Notes under the pieces: model-generated
Seen by the model: only the letters and a program-made list of their open reading frames with translations
Database searches by the model: none
What the model was told of the DNA's origin: nothing
Translations under genes and position numbers: made by a program
Part shown: positions 27,456 to 47,780 of the stretch, in pieces
Layout: the number at the start of each line of letters is the position of its first letter
Position numbering within the stretch: position 1 is the stretch's first letter
Source of the DNA: Candidatus Falkowiibacteriota bacterium
GTDB taxonomy: Bacteria > Patescibacteriota > Patescibacteriia > Patescibacteriales > VMTK01
DNA: 52,362 bases
Assembly: GCA_013791585.1 (NCBI GenBank)
Contig: VMTK01000019.1
Span: 1-52,362 of the forward strand
Direction of reading: 5' to 3'

Positions 27456-27528
27456 GCCGAGGTAGCTCAGTTGGTAGAGCAGTAGTTTTGTAAACTATTG
27501 GTCGGGGGTTCGAGTCCTCTCCTCGGCT
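27456..27528 (+). tRNA. tRNA-Thr (anticodon TGT)
   Basis: Acceptor arms GCCGAGG and CCTCGGC pair, the D arm is GCTC/GAGC, the anticodon arm GTAGT TTTGTAA ACTAT gives TGT, and the T arm is GGGGG TTCGAGT CCTCT (two G-U pairs). Its 3' end is repeated twice downstream. Confidence 0.93.
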
Positions 27529-27726
27529 CACTTTAAAAAAGAGCAGTCCCGCCTAAGCGGGATTGGTCGCCCCGTTCTCCGTTAAGACCGACCGGCGCCG
27601 AGGAGCTTCGAGTCCTCTCCTCGGCTCACTTTAAAAAAGAGCAGTCCCGCCTAAGCGGGATTGGTCGCCCCGTTCTCCGTTAAGACCGACCGGCGCCGAG
27701 GAGCTTCGAGTCCTCTCCTCGGCTCA
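27509..27726 (+). repeat. 98-base tandem repeat derived from tRNA-Thr
   Basis: TTCGAGTCCTCTCCTCGGCT starts at 27509 (inside the tRNA), 27607 and 27705, giving two full 98-base units and a partial third. Each unit has GAGCAG and TTGGTC like the tRNA, but the anticodon arm is replaced by the hairpin TCCCGCCTAAGCGGGA. A further helix (GGTCG...CGACC) follows, then a minihelix GCCGAGGAG/CTCCTCGGC. The units look like truncated or remodelled tRNA-Thr copies. Confidence 0.85.
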
Positions 27727-33920: not shown

Positions 33921-35594
33921 TTATATTTCCAATATTTCGCAGTTATGCTTTTTGCCGTATTTTTTCAAATCTTTTTCAGGGTTGACCAATGTTTTGTATT
34001 TTACCAGTTTTAACATCGGCAGATCGTCATAGTCATGGCCGTAGGCGAAACTTTGGCCTAATTCAAATTTTAGAATTTTTTTTAATTCCAAGACCTGCTT
34101 GCTTTTTTCATTGTTCATGTATTTTTTAATCAGCTTGCCGGTGTATTTTAGCTTTTTTTCTTCCAAATATAAAGACACCCAGTAATCCGCGCCTACATAG
34201 TCGGCGAAGCATTTTGCCAGCGGCGCGACCATGTGCGTTATCAAGATGATTTTATGCCCCTTTTCCTTATGGTCTTTTATGATTGCCCGCATTTTTTCAT
34301 AAACATTGTATTTTAAGTTTTTGTTGAAAATCAGTTTATTTAATCTATACAATTTATCCGCCCTCCAGCCCTTTAATATTAAAATTGAATAATTAAACGA
34401 ATCAAAATAAGAAATAATTTTGCATTTTGACAACATGTAATAATAAAATACCGCGAGCAAATATTTTATTTCTATACTGCCTCTTTTCCATGAATAATAG
34501 ATGAAATCTTTTTGGGCGTTTCCGTCATATAACGTATTGTCAATATTAAACAAGACAGCTGTTTTTTCCGGCGATTTTTCATCATAGCCAAGCGAATAAT
34601 ATTTTTTTAGCAGCAAGCTCCTTACTTCTTTTTTTAATTTTTCCGATGTTTTTTTAATAGTTGATTTATTGTTTTTATAATATTCAACTAAATCAATCGG
34701 TTCGCCAAAAATCACTTTTATTGTGCCGGGAAGAAAAGTGAATTTGCTTAAAGTTATTTTGTCCGTCCCGATAATCCCTATCGGTGTTATTTTCTTGTCG
34801 GCGGCCAATGCTATCCTGGCGGCTCCGGTATGGAAATAAAGCAATTTATGCTGGGGAGAAATATGGCCTTCAGGGAAAATAAGGATTGAATGCCCGCTTT
34901 TTAATTCTTTGATGGCCTTTTTAATCGCTTGATGCGGCTCGTAGGATGTTCGGTATTTTTCTTTTTCTATATCGCTTCTCTGCACATCAATATATTCCAT
35001 TTTGCCAAACCAATAAGAATAGGGGAAAGGGAAATATTTTACCGGAGCCATCAAGGGAGTAATATCGGGGCCCAGCAGATAAATTAAAATAAAGCCGTCT
35101 ATCCCGCTTAAATGGTTTGCGATGTAAATCATTGGTTTTTTATTGGAAATTTTTTTCATTCCCTCAACCTTGATTTTTAATCCGGATAAATAAAAATACC
35201 AGCCAATGTTGAATATCGCGGCCTTTCTCCATAAAAATTTTCTTGACTTCTTTTTTACCGGCAAGCAGAATATTTCAATAATCGGGATTAAAACAATATT
35301 GCAAAAAATAAATAACGAAGTTACCGAGCAATTTTTGCATTTTTTAAATAAAATATATTCCCGCTCGGCAGCTGATTCGCTTGCTTGATGTTTTTCAGCG
35401 GAAAACAAGCCATGCAGCTTTTTTCTTCGTTTATTTTTTAAAAATTTACCCCGCGCAAAAAATGCCTCTGACGAAGCCCCGTACCAAAAACTTTTGGTGC
35501 TGGGCGAAGTCGGATGGTTAAATAATTTGCCGCGGTCGGCGGTATAATGCCACTGGCAAGCAACACCTTTTGCGCGGGGTTTATGTTTAATCAT
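33921..35594 (-). CDS. PlsC-type acyltransferase fused to a HAD-like domain, with palindromic element at its N terminus
   Basis: About 557 residues. The acyltransferase part has NHLSGID (NHx4D) near residue 158 and FPEGHIS near residue 240; it should acylate a lysophosphatidate-like or other acceptor at the membrane. The C-terminal part (from about residue 350) is HAD-like with ITHM and GHDYDDLPML, but the first motif reads FNIDNTLYDG: the usual Asp nucleophile is Asn. The ATG at 35594 overlaps the cyclase stop (ATGATTAA), indicating coupling. Codons 6-50 are a 131-base element plus a 4-base duplication; joining around it restores MIKHKFLKNKRRKK, so the original gene is still readable. The frame also extends to 35633. 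Confidence 0.8.
   Translation of the reverse strand: MIKHKPRAKGVACQWHYTADRGKLFNHPTSPSTKSFWYGASSEAFFARGKFLKNKRRKKLHGLFSAEKHQASESAAEREYILFKKCKNCSVTSLFIFCNIVLIPIIEIFCLPVKKKSRKFLWRKAAIFNIGWYFYLSGLKIKVEGMKKISNKKPMIYIANHLSGIDGFILIYLLGPDITPLMAPVKYFPFPYSYWFGKMEYIDVQRSDIEKEKYRTSYEPHQAIKKAIKELKSGHSILIFPEGHISPQHKLLYFHTGAARIALAADKKITPIGIIGTDKITLSKFTFLPGTIKVIFGEPIDLVEYYKNNKSTIKKTSEKLKKEVRSLLLKKYYSLGYDEKSPEKTAVLFNIDNTLYDGNAQKDFIYYSWKRGSIEIKYLLAVFYYYMLSKCKIISYFDSFNYSILILKGWRADKLYRLNKLIFNKNLKYNVYEKMRAIIKDHKEKGHKIILITHMVAPLAKCFADYVGADYWVSLYLEEKKLKYTGKLIKKYMNNEKSKQVLELKKILKFELGQSFAYGHDYDDLPMLKLVKYKTLVNPEKDLKKYGKKHNCEILEI
35449..35579. mobile_element. 131-base CCCCGCGC-ended palindromic element at the start of the PlsC-HAD gene
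   Basis: Copy 2 of the 131-base family, flanked by the exact 4-base duplication TTTA (35445-35448 and 35580-35583). It lies in the opposite translational sense to copy 1: the host reads the reverse strand (RAKGVACQWHYTADRGKLF ... SEAFFARG). The opposite strand of copy 1 also has an open frame of the same kind. Confidence 0.92.
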
Positions 35595-37416
35595 ATTTAT
35601 TATTTTTCGCGACAACTTCTCCCACAATATCAATATGGAGGTAATCCCTAATCGCTATGTTATGTTTTTTTAAATCAATGATTTTTACTCCATAGTTTGG
35701 ATTGCCGCGGCTGCCCGCGAAATTAGCGGCGGCAGGCCCGAGAAAAATTCCGTTTTTTCCTCCTCGGCCTTCTTTTATCAGTATTTCTTTCGCCAGCTCC
35801 TCAATTCTTTTCGCGATGTTGATTGAATGGCCGTCAGTGTCAAATATTCTTAGGGTGCCAAGATCAATTTCTTGTTCAAGGTTTTCAATATCCTGTTCGT
35901 ATGCTTCTCCAATTTCAACTTGCCCGGTTTCTATGCCAATCCTAATATAAAAATTATCAAAGATTTGTTTGTTTGCCTGTTCGTTTTTTATGCGGTTAAT
36001 TTCATTAATTAATTTTAAGCTGAAATCTATCGCTGTTTCAATGTGGCGGTTGTCTTGATCATCTTTAAAATAATTATACGCGCCGAAAACTATATAGCAG
36101 CCGTCGCCCATCATTTTGTTTAGCCAGCCCCATTCGCCGGCCGTATCTCGCAGGCATTTTTTAATCAATTTTAATAGTATATTTTTGCCTTTCCTAAACG
36201 CTTCATCCCCGATATTTTTTCTTAATTTCGTTGACTGGTGAATATCCAGAAAAATATTCGTTACCGATATATTTTTAAACGGTATTAAGCCGATTTTGGC
36301 GCGCTTTATAAAATTCGGATGGATATAATTTTTTAGCAGCAGCTGATAAAATTCCTTTTCCATTTTTTGCCGCTCCGCCCTTTGCTTAACAGCTTCCTGC
36401 TCCTTGGCCAAGCGCTCTTGTATCAATTTGGCGTAGCCGCGGCTAAGAGGGGATATGCGGCTCATTTTTGAATGTAAAATCCTGGAGGCGGACTTTAGAT
36501 AGTTTAATTTATCCCATGATATGACAGTTATAAAATACGGCGCGTTGTAAAGTTCGCCCTCTTTTAAAACAAGATATTTATTATCCATGTAAATATTTTT
36601 TTTGATTCTCCATGCCCAATTGCCGCCGTCTTTATTGTAAGGCCGGATTTTTCCAAGATAAAAATAATCCTTATTGATTTTTTCTTCAATTAAAATTACT
36701 TTTTCTGCGATTATTTCATCGTCAAGGAAAAAAAATTTTTCTTCTTCCCGGCATTTTTGCTTTATATGCTTGAATTTTTCTTCAATCAGCAGCTGTAAAT
36801 CATATTCTTTCAATATGGTGGAAATCTTTCCTTCGTTCACTTCAAACAAATCAAGTATTGAGTTAAAAATTCCTTCAATATGCATTTCAGACACGAAGTC
36901 AAACACCGGGTTGATATTTTCTTTGAATTTTATTTTTATAACGCATTTGCCGTTGCGGCCTTGCACAAAAGACATGTCTTTTGTATTATTAAAGAAGTGG
37001 TTCAAGGAGCTGATTTGCTTAAAAATATTCGCCGGGCCAAAGAAAAAAGCGCCTAAATTCTGCAAAGCCGCTTCTTTGAATTCTTGCAGTTTGTATTCTT
37101 TTTGGTATTGAGTCAGCAGCGAGCCGACTATCTTGGGCAGTTCAAAGTTATTCGTGATTTTTATCGCTTTTTCCACAATATCAACATAGTCTTCCAATGC
37201 GCACCATTCATCTTTGTTCAGGAAAAATTTTTCTTCTTGCTTGTCTTTAAATAAATAATGGCAAGGATTGCTTTTTTCATTGCCATGGTATAAGTTTTTT
37301 AAATAGTAGTAATATAAGATGACATTTTTATTTGACACCAATGCCTGCCGCGTTTCTTCCGAGAAGCAGTTGCCGCGGCGCTCTTTAAAATTGATTTTGC
37401 TATTTAAATTATGCAT
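35587..37416 (-). CDS. Class III nucleotide cyclase (putative adenylate cyclase)
   Basis: 609 residues. The first 380 residues are helical and charged and are not recognised. The catalytic domain (about 385-590) has both metal-binding Asp residues (NIFLDIHQST and MMGDGCYIVF), the base-recognition Lys in LNKMMGDG, an Asp in FDTDGHSINIAKR consistent with adenine preference, and the transition-state Asn and Arg in the same segment (N-x3-R). It should make cAMP from ATP. No membrane segment is visible, so it is probably cytosolic and regulated by its N-terminal part. The downstream PlsC-HAD gene overlaps its stop codon and the cNMP-binding gene follows. Confidence 0.85.
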   Translation of the reverse strand: MHNLNSKINFKERRGNCFSEETRQALVSNKNVILYYYYLKNLYHGNEKSNPCHYLFKDKQEEKFFLNKDEWCALEDYVDIVEKAIKITNNFELPKIVGSLLTQYQKEYKLQEFKEAALQNLGAFFFGPANIFKQISSLNHFFNNTKDMSFVQGRNGKCVIKIKFKENINPVFDFVSEMHIEGIFNSILDLFEVNEGKISTILKEYDLQLLIEEKFKHIKQKCREEEKFFFLDDEIIAEKVILIEEKINKDYFYLGKIRPYNKDGGNWAWRIKKNIYMDNKYLVLKEGELYNAPYFITVISWDKLNYLKSASRILHSKMSRISPLSRGYAKLIQERLAKEQEAVKQRAERQKMEKEFYQLLLKNYIHPNFIKRAKIGLIPFKNISVTNIFLDIHQSTKLRKNIGDEAFRKGKNILLKLIKKCLRDTAGEWGWLNKMMGDGCYIVFGAYNYFKDDQDNRHIETAIDFSLKLINEINRIKNEQANKQIFDNFYIRIGIETGQVEIGEAYEQDIENLEQEIDLGTLRIFDTDGHSINIAKRIEELAKEILIKEGRGGKNGIFLGPAAANFAGSRGNPNYGVKIIDLKKHNIAIRDYLHIDIVGEVVAKNNKYD

Positions 37417-37626: not shown

Positions 37627-38184
37627 TTAATTAAAAACAACCGTGTTATTAATTAAGTATAGTTTTGGATCTTCCTTGATGTAAAAGCACCTGCTTTGTT
37701 CAGGCACTTTTTCTAAGTCTGCCTTGGCATTAATTTTCAGTAAAGAATTTTTGCCGAGAATGAATTGGACTATTCTCAGCAAACAGTCTCTGGTTTCTAT
37801 GAAGAAGTTATAGTCCTTATATTCAGGAGCATTGAAAAATTCAACCATTGAATTTATCAATATTGTTGTTATTCTTGCCCCAAACTTTGGTTTATTAAGT
37901 ACTTCTTTAGTGAAAGAAAACCTGCCAATTTCAGCGGCTGACTTATCTACATGGCAAGAGTAGATTGTTTCAAAAGCGAGATTTTCCTTGTCGGATTCTT
38001 TTTTGATTGCAGCCGCCATAGTGGCTATTATTTTGTTGTCTTTAATGACAACAAAATAAATATCCGGCAGTCCCGCGAATTCTTTGTCTTTTTCCAAATA
38101 TTCTTTTTTCCAATAATGACTTTTGCAAAAGCTATTTGCATCGGTAAATAATTTTTCCCCTTTGTAAGTTATTTCTACTTTCAT
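37627..38184 (-). CDS. Putative N-acyltransferase (LuxI/thermostable-hemolysin-like fold)
   Basis: 185 residues, probably GNAT-like, with FVVIKDNKIIATMAAAI and a HVDKSAAEIGRFSF segment that resembles the E-(I/L)-x-R-F pattern of LuxI- and thermostable-hemolysin-type proteins. Assignment is by eye and moderate. It forms a separate transcript (promoter and terminator visible). Its leader shares an unusual poly-G sequence with the gene at 32218, which also has an acyltransferase-like domain, so the two may be co-regulated. Confidence 0.5.
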   Translation of the reverse strand: MKVEITYKGEKLFTDANSFCKSHYWKKEYLEKDKEFAGLPDIYFVVIKDNKIIATMAAAIKKESDKENLAFETIYSCHVDKSAAEIGRFSFTKEVLNKPKFGARITTILINSMVEFFNAPEYKDYNFFIETRDCLLRIVQFILGKNSLLKINAKADLEKVPEQSRCFYIKEDPKLYLINNTVVFN

Positions 38185-39547: not shown

Positions 39548-39583
39548 TAAAAAATAAAATTTGCTACGCTATATAGTATATAT

Positions 39584-40645
39584 TTAATTGAGTTTATTTA
39601 TTTTTTTTAAAGGCAATCCGAGAATAACTTTTCCGTTTTTTATTTCTGCTCCTCCTTGAGTAGGATCATCATAAAAATCCAAATGCCCACTATCTAAATC
39701 AATATAATCAATATGGAGTCCTAACGCTAAATTTACTCCCATCGTAATTGAAATGTTTGATTCATACATACAGCCAATCATAATTTTTTTCCCTAGTTTT
39801 TTTGTGAGACGAAAAATTTTTATGAAATTTATTGGTCCGCCGCATTTCATTAATTTTATATTTACCCCGGAAACATAATTCTGCGATAAAAGCGTAAAAG
39901 CATCTTCAAAAGTAATAACCGATTCATCGGCAATAATAGGAATTGGCGATTCTTGGTGGAGAATTTTTAATTCTTCCCAATTTTTCGCTTTGACAGGTTG
40001 TTCAAAAAAAGCAATCGATGTTTCTTTAAGCTCTTTTACCATTTTTTTAGCTCCAGAAAGAGAATATCCCTGATTAGCATCCAACGCGAGCTTCACATTT
40101 GAAGGAAGAATTTTTAGCACTTGTTGTATTTTTTTAAGATCATCCTCTATGTTTAATCCGCATTTTAATTTTATAACCTGAAAATCTTCCGAAAGTCGTT
40201 TTTTTACTTCTTGAAGTGTCTGCTTTAACGGCTGAATTCCGATAGTAACCATAGTATTGCAACTTTTTCTATATCCTCCAAAAAAACAAGAAAGAGGTAT
40301 CTTATGAAGCTGAGACCAAAGGTTTAAATACGCTTCTTCTATAGCGGCTTGAGCTGAGGGGAATCCGGCAAAAACATGTTGGATTTTTTTATGATATTCA
40401 TACCAACTGTTGAAATTGTTTGCAAAAAAATTATTAGTTAGTTTTTCATTTAATATTTGAGACACTTTATCTAGTGTTTCTCCTGTTACTTCTGTGTCTG
40501 GAGAAGCGCTTCCTAGTCCTATATTCCCTTGACTATCGATAAGTTGGATAATGATTATTTCAGTTTCCGTTACTTCTTCATAGGCAATTTTAAAAGGCGC
40601 GCGAAAATGCAACGTTTCTTTATTGATGAAAATTTTGGAAATCAT
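39584..40645 (-). CDS. Enolase-superfamily dipeptide epimerase (L-Ala-D/L-Glu epimerase-like)
   Basis: 353 residues with the muconate-lactonizing subgroup layout. Catalytic KxK appears as VIKLKCG near residue 151. The metal ligands are DANQGY, FFEQPV and IADES, and the second catalytic Lys is in NIKLMKCGG. Such enzymes epimerise the C-terminal residue of dipeptides, classically L-Ala-D-Glu from peptidoglycan, though specificity varies. It is the last gene of a five-gene minus-strand cluster and starts 39 bases after the GNAT gene. Confidence 0.85.
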   Translation of the reverse strand: MISKIFINKETLHFRAPFKIAYEEVTETEIIIIQLIDSQGNIGLGSASPDTEVTGETLDKVSQILNEKLTNNFFANNFNSWYEYHKKIQHVFAGFPSAQAAIEEAYLNLWSQLHKIPLSCFFGGYRKSCNTMVTIGIQPLKQTLQEVKKRLSEDFQVIKLKCGLNIEDDLKKIQQVLKILPSNVKLALDANQGYSLSGAKKMVKELKETSIAFFEQPVKAKNWEELKILHQESPIPIIADESVITFEDAFTLLSQNYVSGVNIKLMKCGGPINFIKIFRLTKKLGKKIMIGCMYESNISITMGVNLALGLHIDYIDLDSGHLDFYDDPTQGGAEIKNGKVILGLPLKKINKLN

Positions 40646-40684
40646 AAAAAGAATTTTTTAGTATTTTATAGATAACAAGAATAT

Positions 40685-41140
40685 CTACAACTTTTTATAC
40701 AGATGCACCTGGCAAATTCCCGGTATAAATTCATGAATTACTGTTCCAGAAATAATAAAACCGTTTTTTAAATAGAATTGAATAACTTCATTATTATTTT
40801 CCGCATCAGTAACTACGTTAAGTAAAGCAGCCTTTTCGTTATAAGCTTCTTTTTCAACCATTTTTAAAAACATTGAACCAATTCCTTTTCTTCTGTATTC
40901 AGGTTCAATTATAATTGTTTCCATGTAAGCAACTTCCATTTTTTTGCGCCAACTCACAAAGCCGACAAATTTTCCGGTTGACATACGGCAAACGGTTCCA
41001 TAATATTTTTTTCTTTTTAAACATAAATGAAATTCTTCCACGAATTCTTCCGCATAACCTGCTCCCATTTCATTTTTCATGAGAGCAAATGCGGAAGAAA
41101 AATCTTCTTTTTTTGTAATGTGAAAAGTAAAAGAGTTCAT
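40685..41140 (-). CDS. GNAT-family N-acetyltransferase
   Basis: 151 residues with YRRKGIGSMFLKMV (acetyl-CoA pyrophosphate-binding Q/RxxGxG/A motif) near residue 80 and the typical C-terminal NNNEVIQFYLKNGF. It probably acetylates an amino group of a small molecule or peptide. The start overlaps the stop of the upstream gene by four bases, showing tight coupling with the aminotransferase-like gene. Confidence 0.85.
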   Translation of the reverse strand: MNSFTFHITKKEDFSSAFALMKNEMGAGYAEEFVEEFHLCLKRKKYYGTVCRMSTGKFVGFVSWRKKMEVAYMETIIIEPEYRRKGIGSMFLKMVEKEAYNEKAALLNVVTDAENNNEVIQFYLKNGFIISGTVIHEFIPGICQVHLYKKL

Positions 41141-42258
41141 TGTTTGTGGTTTTGAAAAAATTCTTTCATTTTTTTATAAGAATAAATAATTTCTTTTTCC
41201 TGAATTAACCAGGTCAATGGGAAAACAATAAAAGAGTCATAGAGATTCTCGTTTAAACCAGAATAGTAATTTTCAATTTTCCATAATTGACTTGCGAAAA
41301 TACCATTTTTTTCCAAATATTGCTCCAATAATCGCAAAATTGATTTTTCAACAAAAAGAGGATAGTAGCTGGTAAGCCGACTTTTTTTAATAACTTCATT
41401 TGGTAAAGTTTTGATAAGCGGCGTTTTGAGTTTCTGAAAATAATGGTTGTATATTAAAGCCAAATTTTTATTGTGTTTTCTTATTTTTTGCAAATCAAGC
41501 AACCCATATCCAAAATAGGAAACATTTTCTCCAAGCGTTGGTCTTGAGTAATTGCCAATAATGTCATTTAAGGTTAGAAATATGTTATTTCCCAAAATAG
41601 AAAACAATTTTGCATTTGAAAAATAGAAACAGAAATCTATAAAATTTTGCGTTAATCGATAAAAGCAAGCTTTTGTTTTATAGATATTCCAATTTTCTAC
41701 CATATCTTTTTGGGGAATAAAGTTCGCATTAATTAAATGTGATCCGAGAAAAGAAGAATGTTTTCTGATACTGTCTATATAAAAATGATGAGAGTTGATA
41801 GCGTGTATTTCTTCTTGATGAAGAATGTAGTGAGCGGCATCTTCAATAATAATGGTTTCTTCCGCGCAAAGATCTTTTATTTTTTTTCTTTCCGCTTCAG
41901 TAAAGGGTATTCCTAAAAAGTTATAATTCCAGATAACTCGCGGCTTATGTCGCTCTATTTGTTCAAAGTAGTTTTTTGTATCTATGGAAAAATCATCATT
42001 TATTTTATAAAAAACAATGTTTAAAAAACGACTAATGACAGTTAAAGTTTCTGTACAAAAGAAATTTGGCATAAGCACAATATCTTTCTCCGGGGAACAT
42101 TTATATTGTTTCAAAATACAAGTTATTGCATCTCCAAAAGACAAAAAAAACTTTTTTCTGCTCCTTGTTGTTAAAAAATTATTCCCTTTCCAGCATAAAG
42201 GCTGTAAGATAAAAGGACGAATTAAATCAATGGGGTGTTTTATTTTATAACGGAACAT
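41137..42258 (-). CDS. DegT/DnrJ-like PLP-dependent enzyme
   Basis: 373 residues. IVLMPNFFCTETLTVIS, IIIEDAAHYIL and DSIRKHSSFLGSHLIN line up with the sugar-aminotransferase (DegT/DnrJ/EryC1) pattern, where the last segment carries the PLP-lysine. Conservation is weak and the glycine-rich loop after the Lys is altered, so activity is uncertain. It overlaps the upstream gene by 19 bases and the downstream gene by 4, so it belongs to the cluster. A peptide- or amino-acid-modifying role is inferred from context. Confidence 0.6.
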   Translation of the reverse strand: MFRYKIKHPIDLIRPFILQPLCWKGNNFLTTRSRKKFFLSFGDAITCILKQYKCSPEKDIVLMPNFFCTETLTVISRFLNIVFYKINDDFSIDTKNYFEQIERHKPRVIWNYNFLGIPFTEAERKKIKDLCAEETIIIEDAAHYILHQEEIHAINSHHFYIDSIRKHSSFLGSHLINANFIPQKDMVENWNIYKTKACFYRLTQNFIDFCFYFSNAKLFSILGNNIFLTLNDIIGNYSRPTLGENVSYFGYGLLDLQKIRKHNKNLALIYNHYFQKLKTPLIKTLPNEVIKKSRLTSYYPLFVEKSILRLLEQYLEKNGIFASQLWKIENYYSGLNENLYDSFIVFPLTWLIQEKEIIYSYKKMKEFFQNHKQ

Positions 42259-43616
42259 AAAGTTTTTTTTAAAAAATAATCAATTTCTTCTTGTTCAATA
42301 GCTATAATTTTTTCAGAAAAATCCGGAGGTAAATTGGAAGCCGGCTTTAATTTAGAAAAATAATTTTTATACCAGAGGAAATCGTGGATTTTTCCAATTT
42401 TTTCTTTTTCAAAGAGGTCAATAATAGAATTTTTGATTCCCTTTTCTTTCATTATGTAAAAAGCACAATCACTATCAATATCCTGATATCCAGAAAAATA
42501 CTCATCTAAAATTTTTTCTTTTTTAAAAAGATCTCTCGAAAATCCCATTTCTCGAAAAGAGTATCCCATAGCTGCTCCTATAATAAACATTTTTTCGCAT
42601 TTATAACAGTTGCCACACCAGGCAGTTTTCTCTTTAAAAGAAGAAAGACCAAAGCATGAAGAATGATACTTGCTCAGTTTCGGATATCGATGATAAAGAG
42701 CAGATTGAGTATTTATTTCCTCCATAGATTCCAGCAAGGCATATGTGTGAGTATTTTTGTTTGTCAATAATTGGGTTATAATATTTTGTTGTTGTGTCCA
42801 AAACGAAGTTTGATCAAAGGAAGGAAAACGATTCCATTCTTCCCATGTGTCATAGCTGTTATTTGAAAACTCATTTCCAAAGAATATAAACGCGGCTTCA
42901 TGCGCAAAAGCAAATGGTATCATTAAAAGATTTAGAATAGTAGTTTGTGTCCCCCAGCCGATTTCCGTGTTATTCCATTCTCCGAAAGCAGCAGCATGCC
43001 GAAAAAGACCAGGATCGTTTTTTAAAAAATAAGTAGTTATTCCCAAATCTTCAGAAAGCTCTTTTAATCGCTTGCGCTTAAATTTTTCTTCATAGCGTTG
43101 GGATGGTTCTTGGCAATAAACCAGTATAGGCTCTATTCCCAACTCCATGCAGATGCCAACCACCAATAAACTTTCTTTACCAAAAGAAAAAGGAACAATA
43201 GCCTTCTTTTTTTTAATATCGAACTCGGAAATTTCAGCATTGTTAGGAAGCGCGCTTTGAATTGAAGCAAACTGGAATTCTAAATTATAAAAATGTTTCA
43301 AATAAGACAGGCTTTCCGCGCCATCCGCCTTTTCGCAATAATGGAGATCGTATAATTGGTTACGAAAGAAAAAGCTTTCCAAAAAAGGAAGAGCTGTTTC
43401 GTAGCTCACCCCCCCTGTTTTTAATATAAGCGGTAAAAAATGCGTGTTAGCATAGGAAAGATTTTCCAATAAGCATTGCCGTATTGAAGAAGGAGTTTTT
43501 TGCCATATATTTTTCGGATATTCGATTGAAAATTTTTGATCAGAAATAATATCAAGAATAATAGTAATACCATTTTTGTCTTCTCTCGTCCGGACTTTAA
43601 GATGAGATTTTTTCAT
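42240..43616 (-). CDS. MurL-like PP-loop protein (putative glutamyl epimerase)
   Basis: 458 residues. IVPFSFGKESLL near residue 143 resembles the adenylating PP-loop (SGGKDS). FFGNEFSNNSYDTW and a late CGNCYKCEKM near residue 342 match what I recall of MurL, the enzyme of Xanthomonas that adenylates and epimerises the terminal L-Glu of UDP-MurNAc-L-Ala-L-Glu. The exact substrate here is unknown. It is adjacent to an ATP-grasp ligase and near a dipeptide epimerase, both consistent with peptide stereochemistry. The gene begins one base after the ligase gene ends. Confidence 0.65.
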   Translation of the reverse strand: MKKSHLKVRTREDKNGITIILDIISDQKFSIEYPKNIWQKTPSSIRQCLLENLSYANTHFLPLILKTGGVSYETALPFLESFFFRNQLYDLHYCEKADGAESLSYLKHFYNLEFQFASIQSALPNNAEISEFDIKKKKAIVPFSFGKESLLVVGICMELGIEPILVYCQEPSQRYEEKFKRKRLKELSEDLGITTYFLKNDPGLFRHAAAFGEWNNTEIGWGTQTTILNLLMIPFAFAHEAAFIFFGNEFSNNSYDTWEEWNRFPSFDQTSFWTQQQNIITQLLTNKNTHTYALLESMEEINTQSALYHRYPKLSKYHSSCFGLSSFKEKTAWCGNCYKCEKMFIIGAAMGYSFREMGFSRDLFKKEKILDEYFSGYQDIDSDCAFYIMKEKGIKNSIIDLFEKEKIGKIHDFLWYKNYFSKLKPASNLPPDFSEKIIAIEQEEIDYFLKKTLCSVIK

Positions 43617-43617
43617 T

Positions 43618-46098
43618 TTAATATTGCAAGTGATAAAAAGGCGGATTTTTTTTATACCGCTCTATGGTCATGCGAATTATTTCTTCCAGAAAATCCCCAT
43701 AACTCATTCCTACCAGTTTTGAGAGTCGGGGGAAAGCGTAGTTTTTATCAATGGAAGGATTCGGGTTAAGTTCAAGCACAAAAGGATTGTTGTTCCGATC
43801 CACTTTGATTTCTACTCGTCCGTAATCGTGGCAATCCAGAATATTGTAGGTGTCCAAAGCAATTTCAGCAAGAAGAGATTTGAGTTTTTGGCTGATTCCT
43901 TTAGCCGGCTCTTGAACTACAATGCTTTTATACGCTTCATTAGCGTCCCACTTGGAATCATAAGCGTAAATATGCCAATAGCCTTCAGGCATTTTATTGA
44001 ATATGGAGCGTGAAAGCGGCAATACGCGGAGATCGTCATAATCGCTTCCCATAATCGCCACATCATATTCATCGCCGTCAATATACTCTTCAATCAGCGC
44101 CGGGCGCTTATATTCAAGGATTATTTTTTCCAGTTGTTTTTTTAAGCCAATTTTATCAGTAACCACCGAGTCATTCGTAATGCCGATGGAATTATCGGTA
44201 TTAGCGGGCTTGACGATCAGCGGATATTTTAAATCATCTCTGATGCTGTCGTTGAGCGTATGCGCATAGTCCCATTTTGCAGTGGGAATATTGTGGTAAG
44301 TTAAGAGTTTTTTGACCCGAATCTTATCAATGCAAAGCCCGAGCGTTAAAGGGTTTGAGCCGGTGTAGGGAATTTGCAGGACGTCAAAAATGGAGGCCGC
44401 GTGCGGCTCCAGCAAGCTGGACTCGTTAATCCTTTCACAAACATTAAAGACAAGATCAATATCGCTGTTGATGAGATTATTGATCGCGTTGGGCGCGTTA
44501 TTAAAATCAATAAAGGCGGTGCGATAACCTAAGCCCTGCAAAGTAGTTTGAATATTTTGTCCCACGGCATTTAATTCTTTTTCCACAGCCATAGTTTGAT
44601 CATCGGACTGATAACCGTTGCACGCAATTCCGATGCGCAGGTTTCTTTGATGGCTGATGGACATTTGCCGAATTTTTTCGATTTTGGCTTTTTGGCGGAT
44701 AGACGGGCTTTTTTTTAGCGAGGAGAAGGAAATATCGCTTTTTCGGTATGTCTTGCCGATGGAAGAGGCATGTTGAAAACGCGCTATATCGTATTTGATG
44801 TGCTTCAGGGCATTTTTGAGATTATCTTGCGCGTCCAGAATATTGTCTCCAGCAGTTGTAATCCACCCCAAGTATTCATATCCTTCCGGCGGCACCAAGA
44901 CCGTATCGCCGATTTTTTTAAAAAAGACGATTTCTTCAACGGATTTTTGTTTTTTGATTTGATGATCGTTAATGTCTAATTGAGTAATGATTCCGGAATA
45001 GTCAGTAAGGAAATAGTGTCCGGTGAGATATTTTTTCGGGTGTGCCGGTTTTTTGATTTTGACATAAATTCCGAAAGCGATTTTTACGGCGTTTTCAATA
45101 AGATCAACTCCCCATGCTCCTTTCACGAATGAATACACTTCATCTCCGCCCATTCGTAAGTTTACTTCAATCGGAACAGGCCCGTTTTTCGTTGATTTCG
45201 CTTCAAAATGAATACAGCCGTTTTGAACTCCCATTTTTTCCAAAGTTTCTTCCGCCATCTCAATAAGCCCTGTTTGCTCTTCGGGCGGCAAACCGGACGG
45301 AATGCTTTGTCCGGTTTCAACAAAAAAAGGCTCTTTGGTTTGGCAGTTATCCGTTATGGAATAAAACTTCACTTTGCCGTTTTGCATCAAGATATCAATG
45401 TCCACCTCATCGCCGTCAATATATTCTTCAACCAAAATATCCAGACCGTCGGTAAGCGCCGATTCAATATTTTCAGAAATTGATTTTTTAATATATTCAA
45501 AACTATTCCTTAGTTCTTCCTCGTTTTCCACCTTCATCACATACGCGCTGCTGGAGCCGAAAACCGGTTTAATGACAAAGGGGAATTTGAGGTTTTGGAG
45601 AATGCCTTTGATGTCTTGCTCGGAACGAATATAAGCATACCGGGGGGTCGGGAGCCCGTTTTTGGCGCAAAATTCCCGAAAAAGAAATTTATTTCTGGCT
45701 TTTTTAGCTACTGACAGAGGGATCCCGATAAATTTAAATCTATCGCAGATTCGCGAGCAAAGCAAGACATCGTCCTCCCAAAAAGTAACCGCGCCATTGA
45801 TTTTGATTGCCGGATGCGCGGCGATAAAATTATGCGCCGCCTGAACCGCTTCGGCGTGATTGGAGTTGTCAGCCAAAATCCAATGGTCAACATACGCCTT
45901 TGCCCAAGTTTCCGCTTTTTTATTGACAACAATAGTCGTTAAACCGAGCTTTTTGATTTTTTGTAAAATAAAGCGCTTTTTTTGCGATCCCGCGTTAACG
46001 ATAAGAATCGCCATATTGTTGAGAGTATTTGGTTTTCGGACTGTTTTTCCGCTATCCGGAGGGTCGTCGTTGTTACTGGTAGGTTGGCTGTTTTTCAT
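43618..46098 (-). CDS. Two-domain ATP-grasp ligase
   Basis: 826 residues. The N-terminal ATP-grasp (about 30-440) has FPFVIKPVFGSSSAYV, VEEYIDGDEVDID and PIEVNLRMGGDEV, like BacD/carbamoyl-phosphate-synthase-type amino-acid ligases. A linker (about 445-505) leads to a second ATP-grasp (about 510-815) with YPLIVKPANTDNSIGI, IEEYIDGDEYDVAI and FVLELNPNPSID, like D-Ala-D-Ala ligase. Both sites look complete. It could join two amino acids or extend a peptide in two steps. Met 29 (46014) is an alternative start. It is the first gene of the cluster. Confidence 0.85.
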   Translation of the reverse strand: MKNSQPTSNNDDPPDSGKTVRKPNTLNNMAILIVNAGSQKKRFILQKIKKLGLTTIVVNKKAETWAKAYVDHWILADNSNHAEAVQAAHNFIAAHPAIKINGAVTFWEDDVLLCSRICDRFKFIGIPLSVAKKARNKFLFREFCAKNGLPTPRYAYIRSEQDIKGILQNLKFPFVIKPVFGSSSAYVMKVENEEELRNSFEYIKKSISENIESALTDGLDILVEEYIDGDEVDIDILMQNGKVKFYSITDNCQTKEPFFVETGQSIPSGLPPEEQTGLIEMAEETLEKMGVQNGCIHFEAKSTKNGPVPIEVNLRMGGDEVYSFVKGAWGVDLIENAVKIAFGIYVKIKKPAHPKKYLTGHYFLTDYSGIITQLDINDHQIKKQKSVEEIVFFKKIGDTVLVPPEGYEYLGWITTAGDNILDAQDNLKNALKHIKYDIARFQHASSIGKTYRKSDISFSSLKKSPSIRQKAKIEKIRQMSISHQRNLRIGIACNGYQSDDQTMAVEKELNAVGQNIQTTLQGLGYRTAFIDFNNAPNAINNLINSDIDLVFNVCERINESSLLEPHAASIFDVLQIPYTGSNPLTLGLCIDKIRVKKLLTYHNIPTAKWDYAHTLNDSIRDDLKYPLIVKPANTDNSIGITNDSVVTDKIGLKKQLEKIILEYKRPALIEEYIDGDEYDVAIMGSDYDDLRVLPLSRSIFNKMPEGYWHIYAYDSKWDANEAYKSIVVQEPAKGISQKLKSLLAEIALDTYNILDCHDYGRVEIKVDRNNNPFVLELNPNPSIDKNYAFPRLSKLVGMSYGDFLEEIIRMTIERYKKNPPFYHLQY

Positions 46099-46197
46099 AA
46101 TTGAAGAATGGATTTTAATTATTTCATCTAACGACTTATATACGAACTTATTAAAATTTTATTTAATTTTAGACAAAAAATTTTATTATATTTCAAT

Positions 46198-47217
46198 TCA
46201 CAGCCATTTTTTCTTTTTGAAAAACAGCAGCATGCAGAAACAGCCGAGAAGCATTATGGCGATAATTATCCAAAAGCCGTCTTTGCTTTCAGTAAAAGGC
46301 ATGCCGCCCATTATATTCATGCCGAATATCGCGGCCAGCAAAGTAAGAGGGAACACTATTACGGAGAAAATCGTCAAAGTTTTCATTATATCGCTAAGCC
46401 GGTAATTTAACAGGGATTCATTTGTATTGTTCAGCACATTTATCATGTCTTTTTGGTTTTCTAAAATTTCCCAAATTCTTTTTGAATGGTCAAGCAGTTC
46501 AATATAATATTTTTTGATTTTTTCTTGGGGTATGAGTTCGTTTTCCATTTGCATTAATTTTTTGATTATGTTTTTATGGTTTTGCATTATTTTCCTGAAA
46601 TTTATAATATTGTGCCTTAGGGACAAAATATGCGATACCGCCTGTTTTTGCATTTGCTGGAAAATTATTTCTTCAACTTTTAATATTTCTATGCTGTTTT
46701 GATCAAGAAACTTAAAGCAGAATTGCATTAATCTTTCCAGCAGTTCATACAGCAGAACCGCCGGAGATTCAAATTTGTAGGCCAGGAGCGAATCGCCGTC
46801 TTTTTTGCAAAGATTAAAAAAGTCGTTTAACGCCTTAATATTGTCGTTGTGCAGAGTTATCAGATAGCCCTTGCCCATGAAAAATTCAATTTCCCCCGGG
46901 ACAATAGTATATTCAATGTTCCGGCTTTTCGCTTTTTTATTATTTTCACTGCTTTTTTCCCGCGCCGCCTGCAAAACAGGGAAATGCAGAATCATAAATA
47001 AATAATCTTTTTTCTGTTCAACAGTCGGCCTTTGCGCCATGGATTTGGCGGATGACGCCTGCAAGTCCGATAAATCAAAACTATAATTTTTGCGCAGATA
47101 TTCTATTTCTTTTTTTCCGGCATTGCGTATGTTAAGCCAGATTAATTTATCCTTCGTGTCTGGATTATCAATGGTTATTTGCTGTATTGTATCTGAAATT
47201 TTATTGTATTTAGGCAT
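46198..47217 (-). CDS. corA: CorA-type magnesium/divalent cation transporter
   Basis: 339 residues with a soluble N-terminal alpha/beta domain, a long helix, and two C-terminal membrane helices. The GMN signature reads AIFGMNIMGGMP between the helices. It should form a pentameric channel for Mg2+ or Co2+. The upstream gap (47218-47383) is an AAATTTGAAATT-type inverted repeat. Confidence 0.9.
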   Translation of the reverse strand: MPKYNKISDTIQQITIDNPDTKDKLIWLNIRNAGKKEIEYLRKNYSFDLSDLQASSAKSMAQRPTVEQKKDYLFMILHFPVLQAAREKSSENNKKAKSRNIEYTIVPGEIEFFMGKGYLITLHNDNIKALNDFFNLCKKDGDSLLAYKFESPAVLLYELLERLMQFCFKFLDQNSIEILKVEEIIFQQMQKQAVSHILSLRHNIINFRKIMQNHKNIIKKLMQMENELIPQEKIKKYYIELLDHSKRIWEILENQKDMINVLNNTNESLLNYRLSDIMKTLTIFSVIVFPLTLLAAIFGMNIMGGMPFTESKDGFWIIIAIMLLGCFCMLLFFKKKKWL

Positions 47218-47383
47218 AAATTTTGGTAATTAGAAATTAGAAATTAGAAATTTGGAAATATTTTTTTAAACTTTCATTTTCTTTTTATATTCCCAAATTT
47301 CTAATTTCAAATTTCAAATTTCAAAGAATTGATAATGTTATTTTCATTATAACACAAAATTAATATTTTGGACAAAAAACTTG
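47218..47383. repeat. AAATTAGAAATT inverted repeat upstream of corA
   Basis: Left arm AATTAGAAATTAGAAATTTGG (about 47228-47250), right arm CCCAAATTTCTAATTTC (about 47293-47325). Same family as 20690-20818 and 49660-49840. No gene is seen. Confidence 0.75.
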
Positions 47384-47456
47384 AGCCGACTATCGGAGTT
47401 GAACCGATAACCTACGGTTTACGATACCGTTGCTCTACCAATTGAGCTAAGTCGGC
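47384..47456 (-). tRNA. tRNA-Thr (anticodon CGT)
   Basis: On the minus strand: acceptor GCCGACT/AGTCGGC, D arm GCTC/GAGC, anticodon arm ACGGT ATCGTAA ACCGT giving CGT, T arm ATCGG TTCAACT CCGAT, discriminator T. CCA is not encoded. Confidence 0.93.
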
Positions 47457-47520
47457 TATTTCGGATTTCGGATTTCTGATGTCAGATTTCGGATTTCGGA
47501 CATCTGGCATCTGGCATACG
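47457..47520. repeat. TTTCGGATTTCGGA repeat between tRNA genes
   Basis: Tandem GGATTTCGGATTTC units, then CATCTGGCATCTGGCAT. Same family as 27367-27452; both lie between tRNA genes. Confidence 0.8.
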
Positions 47521-47634
47521 GAATGAGCGAGTAACGGGAATCGGACCCGTGCCTCAACCTTGCCCCGCACCAAATAAAGATTATGCCTACAAGATTGAGC
47601 GGAATACGAGAATCGAACTCGCGCTTCTTGCTTG

Positions 47635-47780
47635 CCCCGCACCAAAAAAGAATTGTTTGTTTAATTATGAGCGGATGATGGGAATCGAACCCACGCTTTA
47701 ACCTTGGGAAGGTCATGTACTACCATTATACTACACCCGCAGATATAAGCTGATATAATTTATTCTTATTTGGTGCGGGG
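47635..47780. mobile_element. tRNA-Gly-carrying palindromic element (inner)
   Basis: 146 bases with ends CCCCGCACCAAAT and a matching inverse, flanked by CTTG (47631-47634 and 47781-47784). It carries the intact tRNA-Gly at 47670-47740. The 35-base arm at one end has the same length in both copies. Confidence 0.88.
47670..47740 (-). tRNA. Inner intact tRNA-Gly (anticodon CCC)
   Basis: On the minus strand: acceptor GCGGGTG/CATCCGC (one G-U), D arm GTAT/GTAC, anticodon arm TGACC TTCCCAA GGTTA giving CCC, T arm GTGGG TTCGATT CCCAT, discriminator T. It is uninterrupted and is likely the functional copy. Confidence 0.92.

Follow-up and report, generated by a model that had tools for sequence, protein, structure and literature searches.

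A five-gene operon in a Patescibacterium (Candidatus Falkowiibacteriota bacterium) probably encodes a pathway, independent of nonribosomal peptide synthetases (NRPSs), to a short peptide containing at least one D-residue, a reading to which we assign a probability of about 0.62. The operon occupies positions 39584-46098 of contig VMTK01000019.1 (assembly GCA_013791585.1), and the whole 52,362-nucleotide (nt) contig was analysed (the window hereafter). The reading is based on the homology and fold of the proteins, their conserved catalytic residues, the structure of the operon, the recurrence of the gene set and module swapping, and from these we infer every reaction, the order of the reactions, the substrates and the nature of the product, taken to be a specialised or surface metabolite and not a cell-wall precursor. 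In the order of transcription, the genes and the evidence for their assignment (lengths in amino acids, aa) are:

43618-46098, minus strand: AG2, double ATP-grasp ligase, 826 aa (domain matches, PDB matches, full-length homologues)
42240-43616, minus strand: PPL, MurL-like PP-loop (ATP pyrophosphatase fold) protein, 458 aa (profile-profile match, structure model, tree)
41137-42258, minus strand: PLP, DegT-like fold-type-I pyridoxal phosphate (PLP) enzyme, 373 aa (structure model, invariant residues)
40685-41140, minus strand: GNAT N-acyltransferase, 151 aa (PF00583, 3.7e-14)
39584-40645, minus strand: ENO, enolase-superfamily (MR_MLE) dipeptide epimerase homologue, 353 aa (family matches, aligned catalytic residues)

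Along transcription, 1 base separates AG2 from PPL, PPL and PLP overlap by 19 bases, PLP and GNAT overlap by 4, and 39 bases separate GNAT from ENO. An earlier note on this DNA had listed the same five genes, and its coordinates, gaps and overlaps all match open reading frames in the window; its view of a single operon is borne out by minus-strand genes that overlap or abut. Scans for promoters and terminators gave signals no more than in shuffled sequence.

The operon belongs to a modular family that extends across Patescibacteria, a point absent from the earlier note. AG2 is the core of this family, because it is present in 16 of the 380 genomes of a phylum-wide sample (~4%) and because PPL, ENO and PLP adjoin it in most loci. 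At least 12 other loci carry combinations of these genes, and the named contigs that carry a homologous cluster are nearly all from Patescibacteria. The arrangements (L numbers denote loci) are:

L044 (Falkowbacteria): AG2-PPL-GNAT-ENO-PLP-third ATP-grasp-LysA-like
L043: AG2-PPL-ENO-PLP-ATP-grasp-LysA-like-C45 acyltransferase
L045 (Peribacteraceae): AG2-PPL-ENO-PLP-ATP-grasp-LysA-like
L047 (Roizmanbacteria): AG2-PPL-ENO, then FemX-like on the other strand, ATP-grasp, LysA-like
L042 and L050: AG2-PPL-ATP-grasp-LysA-like
L041 (Peregrinibacteria): AG2-PPL-ENO
L053: AG2-ENO-methyltransferase-PPL-PLP
L055: AG2-PPL-KamA aminomutase-AG2
L052: AG2-PPL-SET (SET called by eye)
L054: AG2-PPL
L051: PPL-AG2-SET-FemX
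L132, L138 and L139 (without PPL): AG2 with ATP-grasp and LysA-like
L135 and L136 (without PPL): AG2 with FemX-like
L141 (without PPL): AG2 with methyltransferase and major facilitator superfamily (MFS) transporter
L133, L134, L137 and L140 (without PPL): AG2 alone

Among these partners the LysA-like protein is a decarboxylase, the FemX/FemAB-like protein a GNAT and the methyltransferases are of the SET or class-I type, and the tailoring genes (third ATP-grasp, decarboxylase, FemX, KamA, C45 and methyltransferases) fit peptide chemistry. Transporter genes lie beside AG2 in two loci (a HlyD/ABC/MacB exporter in L136, MFS in L141). Relatives of PPL in Spirochaetes are flanked on one side by a ThrC/SbnA-like PLP enzyme and on the other by a single Ddl-like ligase, and the three Spirochaete genomes reached through the loci contained a separate Ddl-like gene, a half like an L-amino acid ligase (LAL) elsewhere and no fused AG2.

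The N-terminal half of AG2 (residues ~30-440) is of the L-amino-acid-ligase type with a LAL_C2 domain, and matches PF13535 (111.8 bits) and PF18603 (35.3 bits) above their cut-offs; its closest PDB entry is 3vot (BL00235, 5e-27) and, as in L-amino acid ligases, the E-x-N-x-R-x-G-G-D stretch is present (EVNLRMGGD). The C-terminal half (residues ~490-815) is Ddl-like (PF07478; PDB entry 3r23, a Ddl, 2e-22) and keeps the terminal stretch of D-Ala-D-Ala ligases, including the catalytic Arg and N-x-x-P (DYGRVE, ELNPNP). Full-length homologues, 12 copies besides that of the window, are 37-62% identical. The two halves, one LAL-type and one Ddl-like, thus support the previous suggestion of a double ATP-grasp enzyme that could form peptide bonds. 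On 72,556 plasmids AG2 found no match covering 80% or more, and PPL none at all; viral contigs held no relative of AG2 and there is therefore no phage link.

PPL had no Pfam match, and its only NCBIfam match was MurL (E 5e-7), which scored 28.5 bits where the cut-off is 700 and covered positions 131-341 only. The relationship is nevertheless genuine: hhalign aligned PPL with MurL over 353 columns (99.2%, E 2.9e-19), and a profile of 21 PPL proteins picked up five MurL-type proteins of the phylum (1e-27 to 3e-17). A GK(D/E)S loop, the pair NE and the cysteine pattern SC ... C..C..C are conserved in both families, and the PPL motifs read SFGKES, GNE and SC/WC..C..C. A sequence search of the PDB with PPL returned nothing significant; the fold search alone placed the AlphaFold model (mean predicted local distance difference test, pLDDT, 81), nearest to QueC-type PP-loop enzymes. 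In the tree, a branch with 100/100 support separates the MurL clade from the PPL clade, so that the resemblance to MurL noted earlier is real but distant, and PPL stands outside the true MurL clade. MurL has been reported to carry out an ATP-driven one-way inversion (Feng et al. 2017, reviewed in PMC8788868 and PMC5808125), the adenylate itself being a proposal there; PPL is predicted to be an ATP-dependent peptide epimerase. True MurL of the phylum adjoins or is fused to MurD (L061 5871-8575, L062 6996-9607, L063 7563-10248, L064 6626-9154, L065 6756-9407), and these MurL proteins of the candidate phyla radiation (CPR), at 243-398 bits, also fall under the cut-off of 700 but cover nearly the whole model. 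The genome of L064 (G433) has no MurI match, which suggests that part of the phylum makes D-Glu by a MurD/MurL route, in one chain. A separate observation concerns L056 (8967-11820), where two PPL genes lie tail to tail in a single-contig genome with no AG2 adjoining; that genome also carries a MurL-like match adjoining a Mur ligase.

The catalytic K162 and K268 of YkfB correspond to K161 and K264 in ENO, and its D321xD323 motif to D316xD318. Both catalytic Lys, the metal ligands and the DxD motif characteristic of dipeptide epimerases are therefore present in ENO, and the catalytic residues are invariant in 7 homologues. As an L-Ala-D/L-Glu epimerase, by contrast, ENO falls short of the NF041118 cut-off (213 bits, cut-off 500). 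In YkfB, Arg24 binds the side chain of the substrate Glu. ENO has E23 at this position, as do all 7 cluster homologues, and because an invariant Tyr-Glu replaces the Leu-Arg24 of YkfB, Glu is an unlikely substrate of ENO, a point that draws on the alignment and general knowledge; E23 would instead favour a basic or polar residue. The proposed likeness to L-Ala-D/L-Glu epimerases thus holds for dipeptide-epimerase homology but not for the residue that would bind Glu.

PLP matched no Pfam or NCBIfam family. Its structure model (pLDDT 73) matches fold-type-I aminotransferases, the highest TM-scores listed (0.58-0.60) being those of the DegT-type PseC, Spr1654 and DesI, and D140 and K166, the Asp and PLP-binding Lys of that fold type, are invariant across homologues. 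The Pfam cut-off for DegT is not reached, by the window protein (no match) or by its homologue in L043 (17 bits against 19.8). The structure model and the two residues hence favour the DegT-like enzyme of the earlier note, although the Pfam family does not confirm it; the claimed GNAT, an ordinary acyltransferase, is confirmed by its PF00583 match.

Taken together, these assignments allow the following pathway to be proposed. The LAL half of AG2 would couple two L-amino acids to an L,L-dipeptide, ATP being converted to ADP, and ENO would then reversibly invert the C-terminal residue of the free dipeptide, with its DxD motif holding the free alpha-ammonium. The Ddl-like half of AG2 may extend the chain by a further residue, after which PPL, using ATP, would activate the C-terminal carboxylate and invert it one way, as reported for MurL. 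PLP would make or modify a building block and GNAT would cap an amine. In this scheme ENO would need a free dipeptide and PPL could act on a longer or capped chain; rather than two chemistries for one kind of bond, as described earlier, the operon is better seen as having two epimerases that probably work at different chain lengths.

Evidence that the family exchanges parts comes from composition and from trees. The G+C content at third codon positions (GC3) is 0.24-0.28 in PPL, PLP, GNAT and ENO, 0.34-0.49 in 25 other window genes and 0.455 in AG2, so that the codon-usage comparison suggested in the earlier note, made here as GC3, does set the four distal genes apart from their window neighbours. 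In L132 the ATP-grasp and LysA-like genes have a GC3 of 0.40-0.42 against 0.56 for AG2 and 0.62 (standard deviation, sd, 0.02) for the neighbours, and in L054 that of PPL is 0.36 against 0.56 (sd 0.09). Not every copy is recent, since in several loci, L047 and L051 among them, the cluster matches its surroundings. Path lengths in the AG2 tree put the window closest to L044, L140 and L051, whereas in the PPL tree it groups with L041, L052, L054 and L055 (100/100) and L051 pairs with L057 instead. The disagreement between the trees and the difference in GC3 between accessory genes and AG2 indicate module swapping among the loci.

The operon and corA also lie inside the largest repeat-free stretch of the window (39551-47194, unstranded, P about 0.04), just past which are two tRNA genes (47383-47740). 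As evidence of acquisition this gap is weak alone, and GC3 is stronger. The earlier note had read a lack of local palindromic insertions as recent acquisition; the repeat-free stretch and the foreign GC3 of four of the five genes agree with it.

Several observations weigh against a D-residue peptide pathway. The window neighbourhood of the operon contains no obvious exporter or resistance gene. The Ddl-type residues of the C-terminal half are partly lost in the AG2 proteins of L053 and L047, and this half may therefore not be a ligase in every copy. The four solitary AG2 loci suggest a simpler core product. The nesting of the partner genes, on the other hand, counts in favour of the pathway: in the sampled loci PLP occurs only with ENO (5/5) and ENO only with PPL and AG2 (7/7), and ENO is found in 0/10 inspected AG2 loci without PPL, but as most loci were found through PPL this nesting is partly a matter of ascertainment and suggestive only.

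Four other readings were weighed. The operon could decorate a surface glycan or lipid with a peptide or acyl-amino group; a nucleotide-linked sugar would then be the substrate of PLP and GNAT, and the attached peptide would be built by AG2, ENO and PPL. The DegT-like structures near PLP include sugar aminotransferases, DegT with GNAT is a usual sugar-modifying pair, and one family has three genomes in which a PPL is surrounded by Wzy, flippase and nucleotidyltransferase genes. However, the PPLs of that family are long-branched with no AG2 adjoining, and neither the window operon nor the recurring partners included a gene recognised as a glycosyltransferase or nucleotide-sugar gene, which leaves decoration unlikely. 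A compatible solute, that is a small neutral peptide for osmotic balance, is rather improbable. An ATP-grasp enzyme takes part in making the osmolyte N-acetylglutaminylglutamine amide, AG2 alone recurs, and in one family AG2 adjoins genes that by eye resemble those of trehalose synthesis (OtsA- and TreT-like; L132 7542-11731, L133 4485-7899); yet a known osmolyte would need no epimerases, decarboxylase or aminomutase, and trehalose-type neighbours are missing from the window and from most loci.

The remaining two readings concern the cell wall. The first, a pathway to the peptidoglycan stem peptide or an alternative supply of D-Glu, takes up the unusual wall stem that the earlier note had listed among its options; in its favour, two of the parts have MurL and Ddl as their closest relatives among wall enzymes. 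Two of the checks that the note proposed, a MurL profile search and a search for D-Glu genes, gave the distant similarity described above and a MurI in the host (C6:2408-3169, 205 bits against a cut-off of 146.65). The host also has a separate Ddl of 321 aa (C69:18587-19186, 194 bits), so that the C-terminal half of AG2 is not the genome's Ddl and the operon is not needed for either D-Glu or D-Ala-D-Ala. Three Mur-ligase domains were matched in the host, and further ones may sit in assembly gaps. PPL falls outside the clade whose members in the phylum accompany MurD, and is also found in a family whose three sampled members show 0-1 Mur-ligase matches; no mur gene was recognised among the recurring partners of AG2 or PPL in the loci inspected. 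We rejected a wall-stem role on MurI, the separate Ddl and the tree placement of PPL, E23 of ENO also arguing against a wall role, and regard it as very improbable. Salvage of imported wall peptides, with D-residues epimerised and then degraded, is hardly credible: ENO does belong to the family of L-Ala-D/L-Glu recycling epimerases, but the operon opens with a ligase that consumes ATP and has no peptidase or peptide transporter, and in ENO the Glu-binding Arg is replaced by E23.

The organism is a very small, probably host-dependent bacterium with a genome of 1.34 Mb (73 contigs, completeness 97.8%), and the genomes of its relatives span 0.6-1.7 Mb. Elsewhere in the window, a near-perfect 49-nt palindrome (TTATCAGCACCGAGTGCTGC...) occurs at four intergenic sites (17149, 20727, 23949 and 47887), and two or three 98-nt units at 27456-27726, 98% alike, repeat the 3' end of tRNA-Thr(tgt), which may reflect an integration site or a duplicated tRNA end. 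Two minus-strand proteins near the operon were noted: one of 185 aa (37627-38184), with no significant family match and an EIGRF stretch that by eye recalls autoinducer-synthase/GNAT folds, and one of 609 aa (35587-37416), whose C-terminal part by eye resembles class III nucleotide cyclase.

ATP-grasp peptide pathways, MurL and dipeptide epimerases are already known. In the open-access literature we found no description of a fused LAL-Ddl ligase, of its pairing with MurL-like and enolase-type epimerases, or of the spread of the AG2 family with changing partners in Patescibacteria. Beyond the D-residue peptide proposed for the window, it is possible, at somewhat less than even odds, that the family represents combinatorial peptide assembly lines free of both NRPSs and precursor peptides, spread by swapping, with a MurL-type epimerase recruited outside the wall. 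If so, genome-reduced bacteria gain nonribosomal peptide chemistry so far unrecognised. Biosynthetic clusters are considered uncommon in streamlined genomes (PMC12455944) and those reported from CPR bacteria are mainly for linear azole-containing peptides (LAPs; YcaO) (PMC7298704); AG2 in ~4% of sampled genomes, with varying partners, would change this view of few clusters in Patescibacteria. Testable questions follow, on MurL chemistry acting on free peptides and on small peptides of epibionts acting on hosts or neighbours.

The LAP clusters are likewise peptide biosynthesis in Patescibacteria, but use a ribosomal precursor and YcaO chemistry, neither of which was recognised at the operon. 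Each half of AG2 matches either the L-amino acid ligases (BL00235, BacD, TabS) or Ddl, and AG2 fuses both in one ~800-aa chain. PPL shares PP-loop core motifs and a similar length with MurL, with a profile match over ~350 columns, but forms a separate, fully supported clade, has a LAL/Ddl ligase rather than MurD2 as its partner and occurs in a host with MurI. ENO shares the Lys pair, metal ligands and DxD with YkfB and the wider dipeptide epimerases (PDB 1jpm, 2zad, 3rit, 3jva), but has Tyr-Glu instead of Leu-Arg24 and ligases, not wall hydrolases, as neighbours. A parallel in logic is a designed route to L-Cys-D-Val, which works (PMC13338154) and in which an ATP-grasp ligase (LAL) is likewise followed by an enolase-type dipeptide epimerase; that route was engineered from unrelated sources and proceeds without a MurL-type second epimerase.

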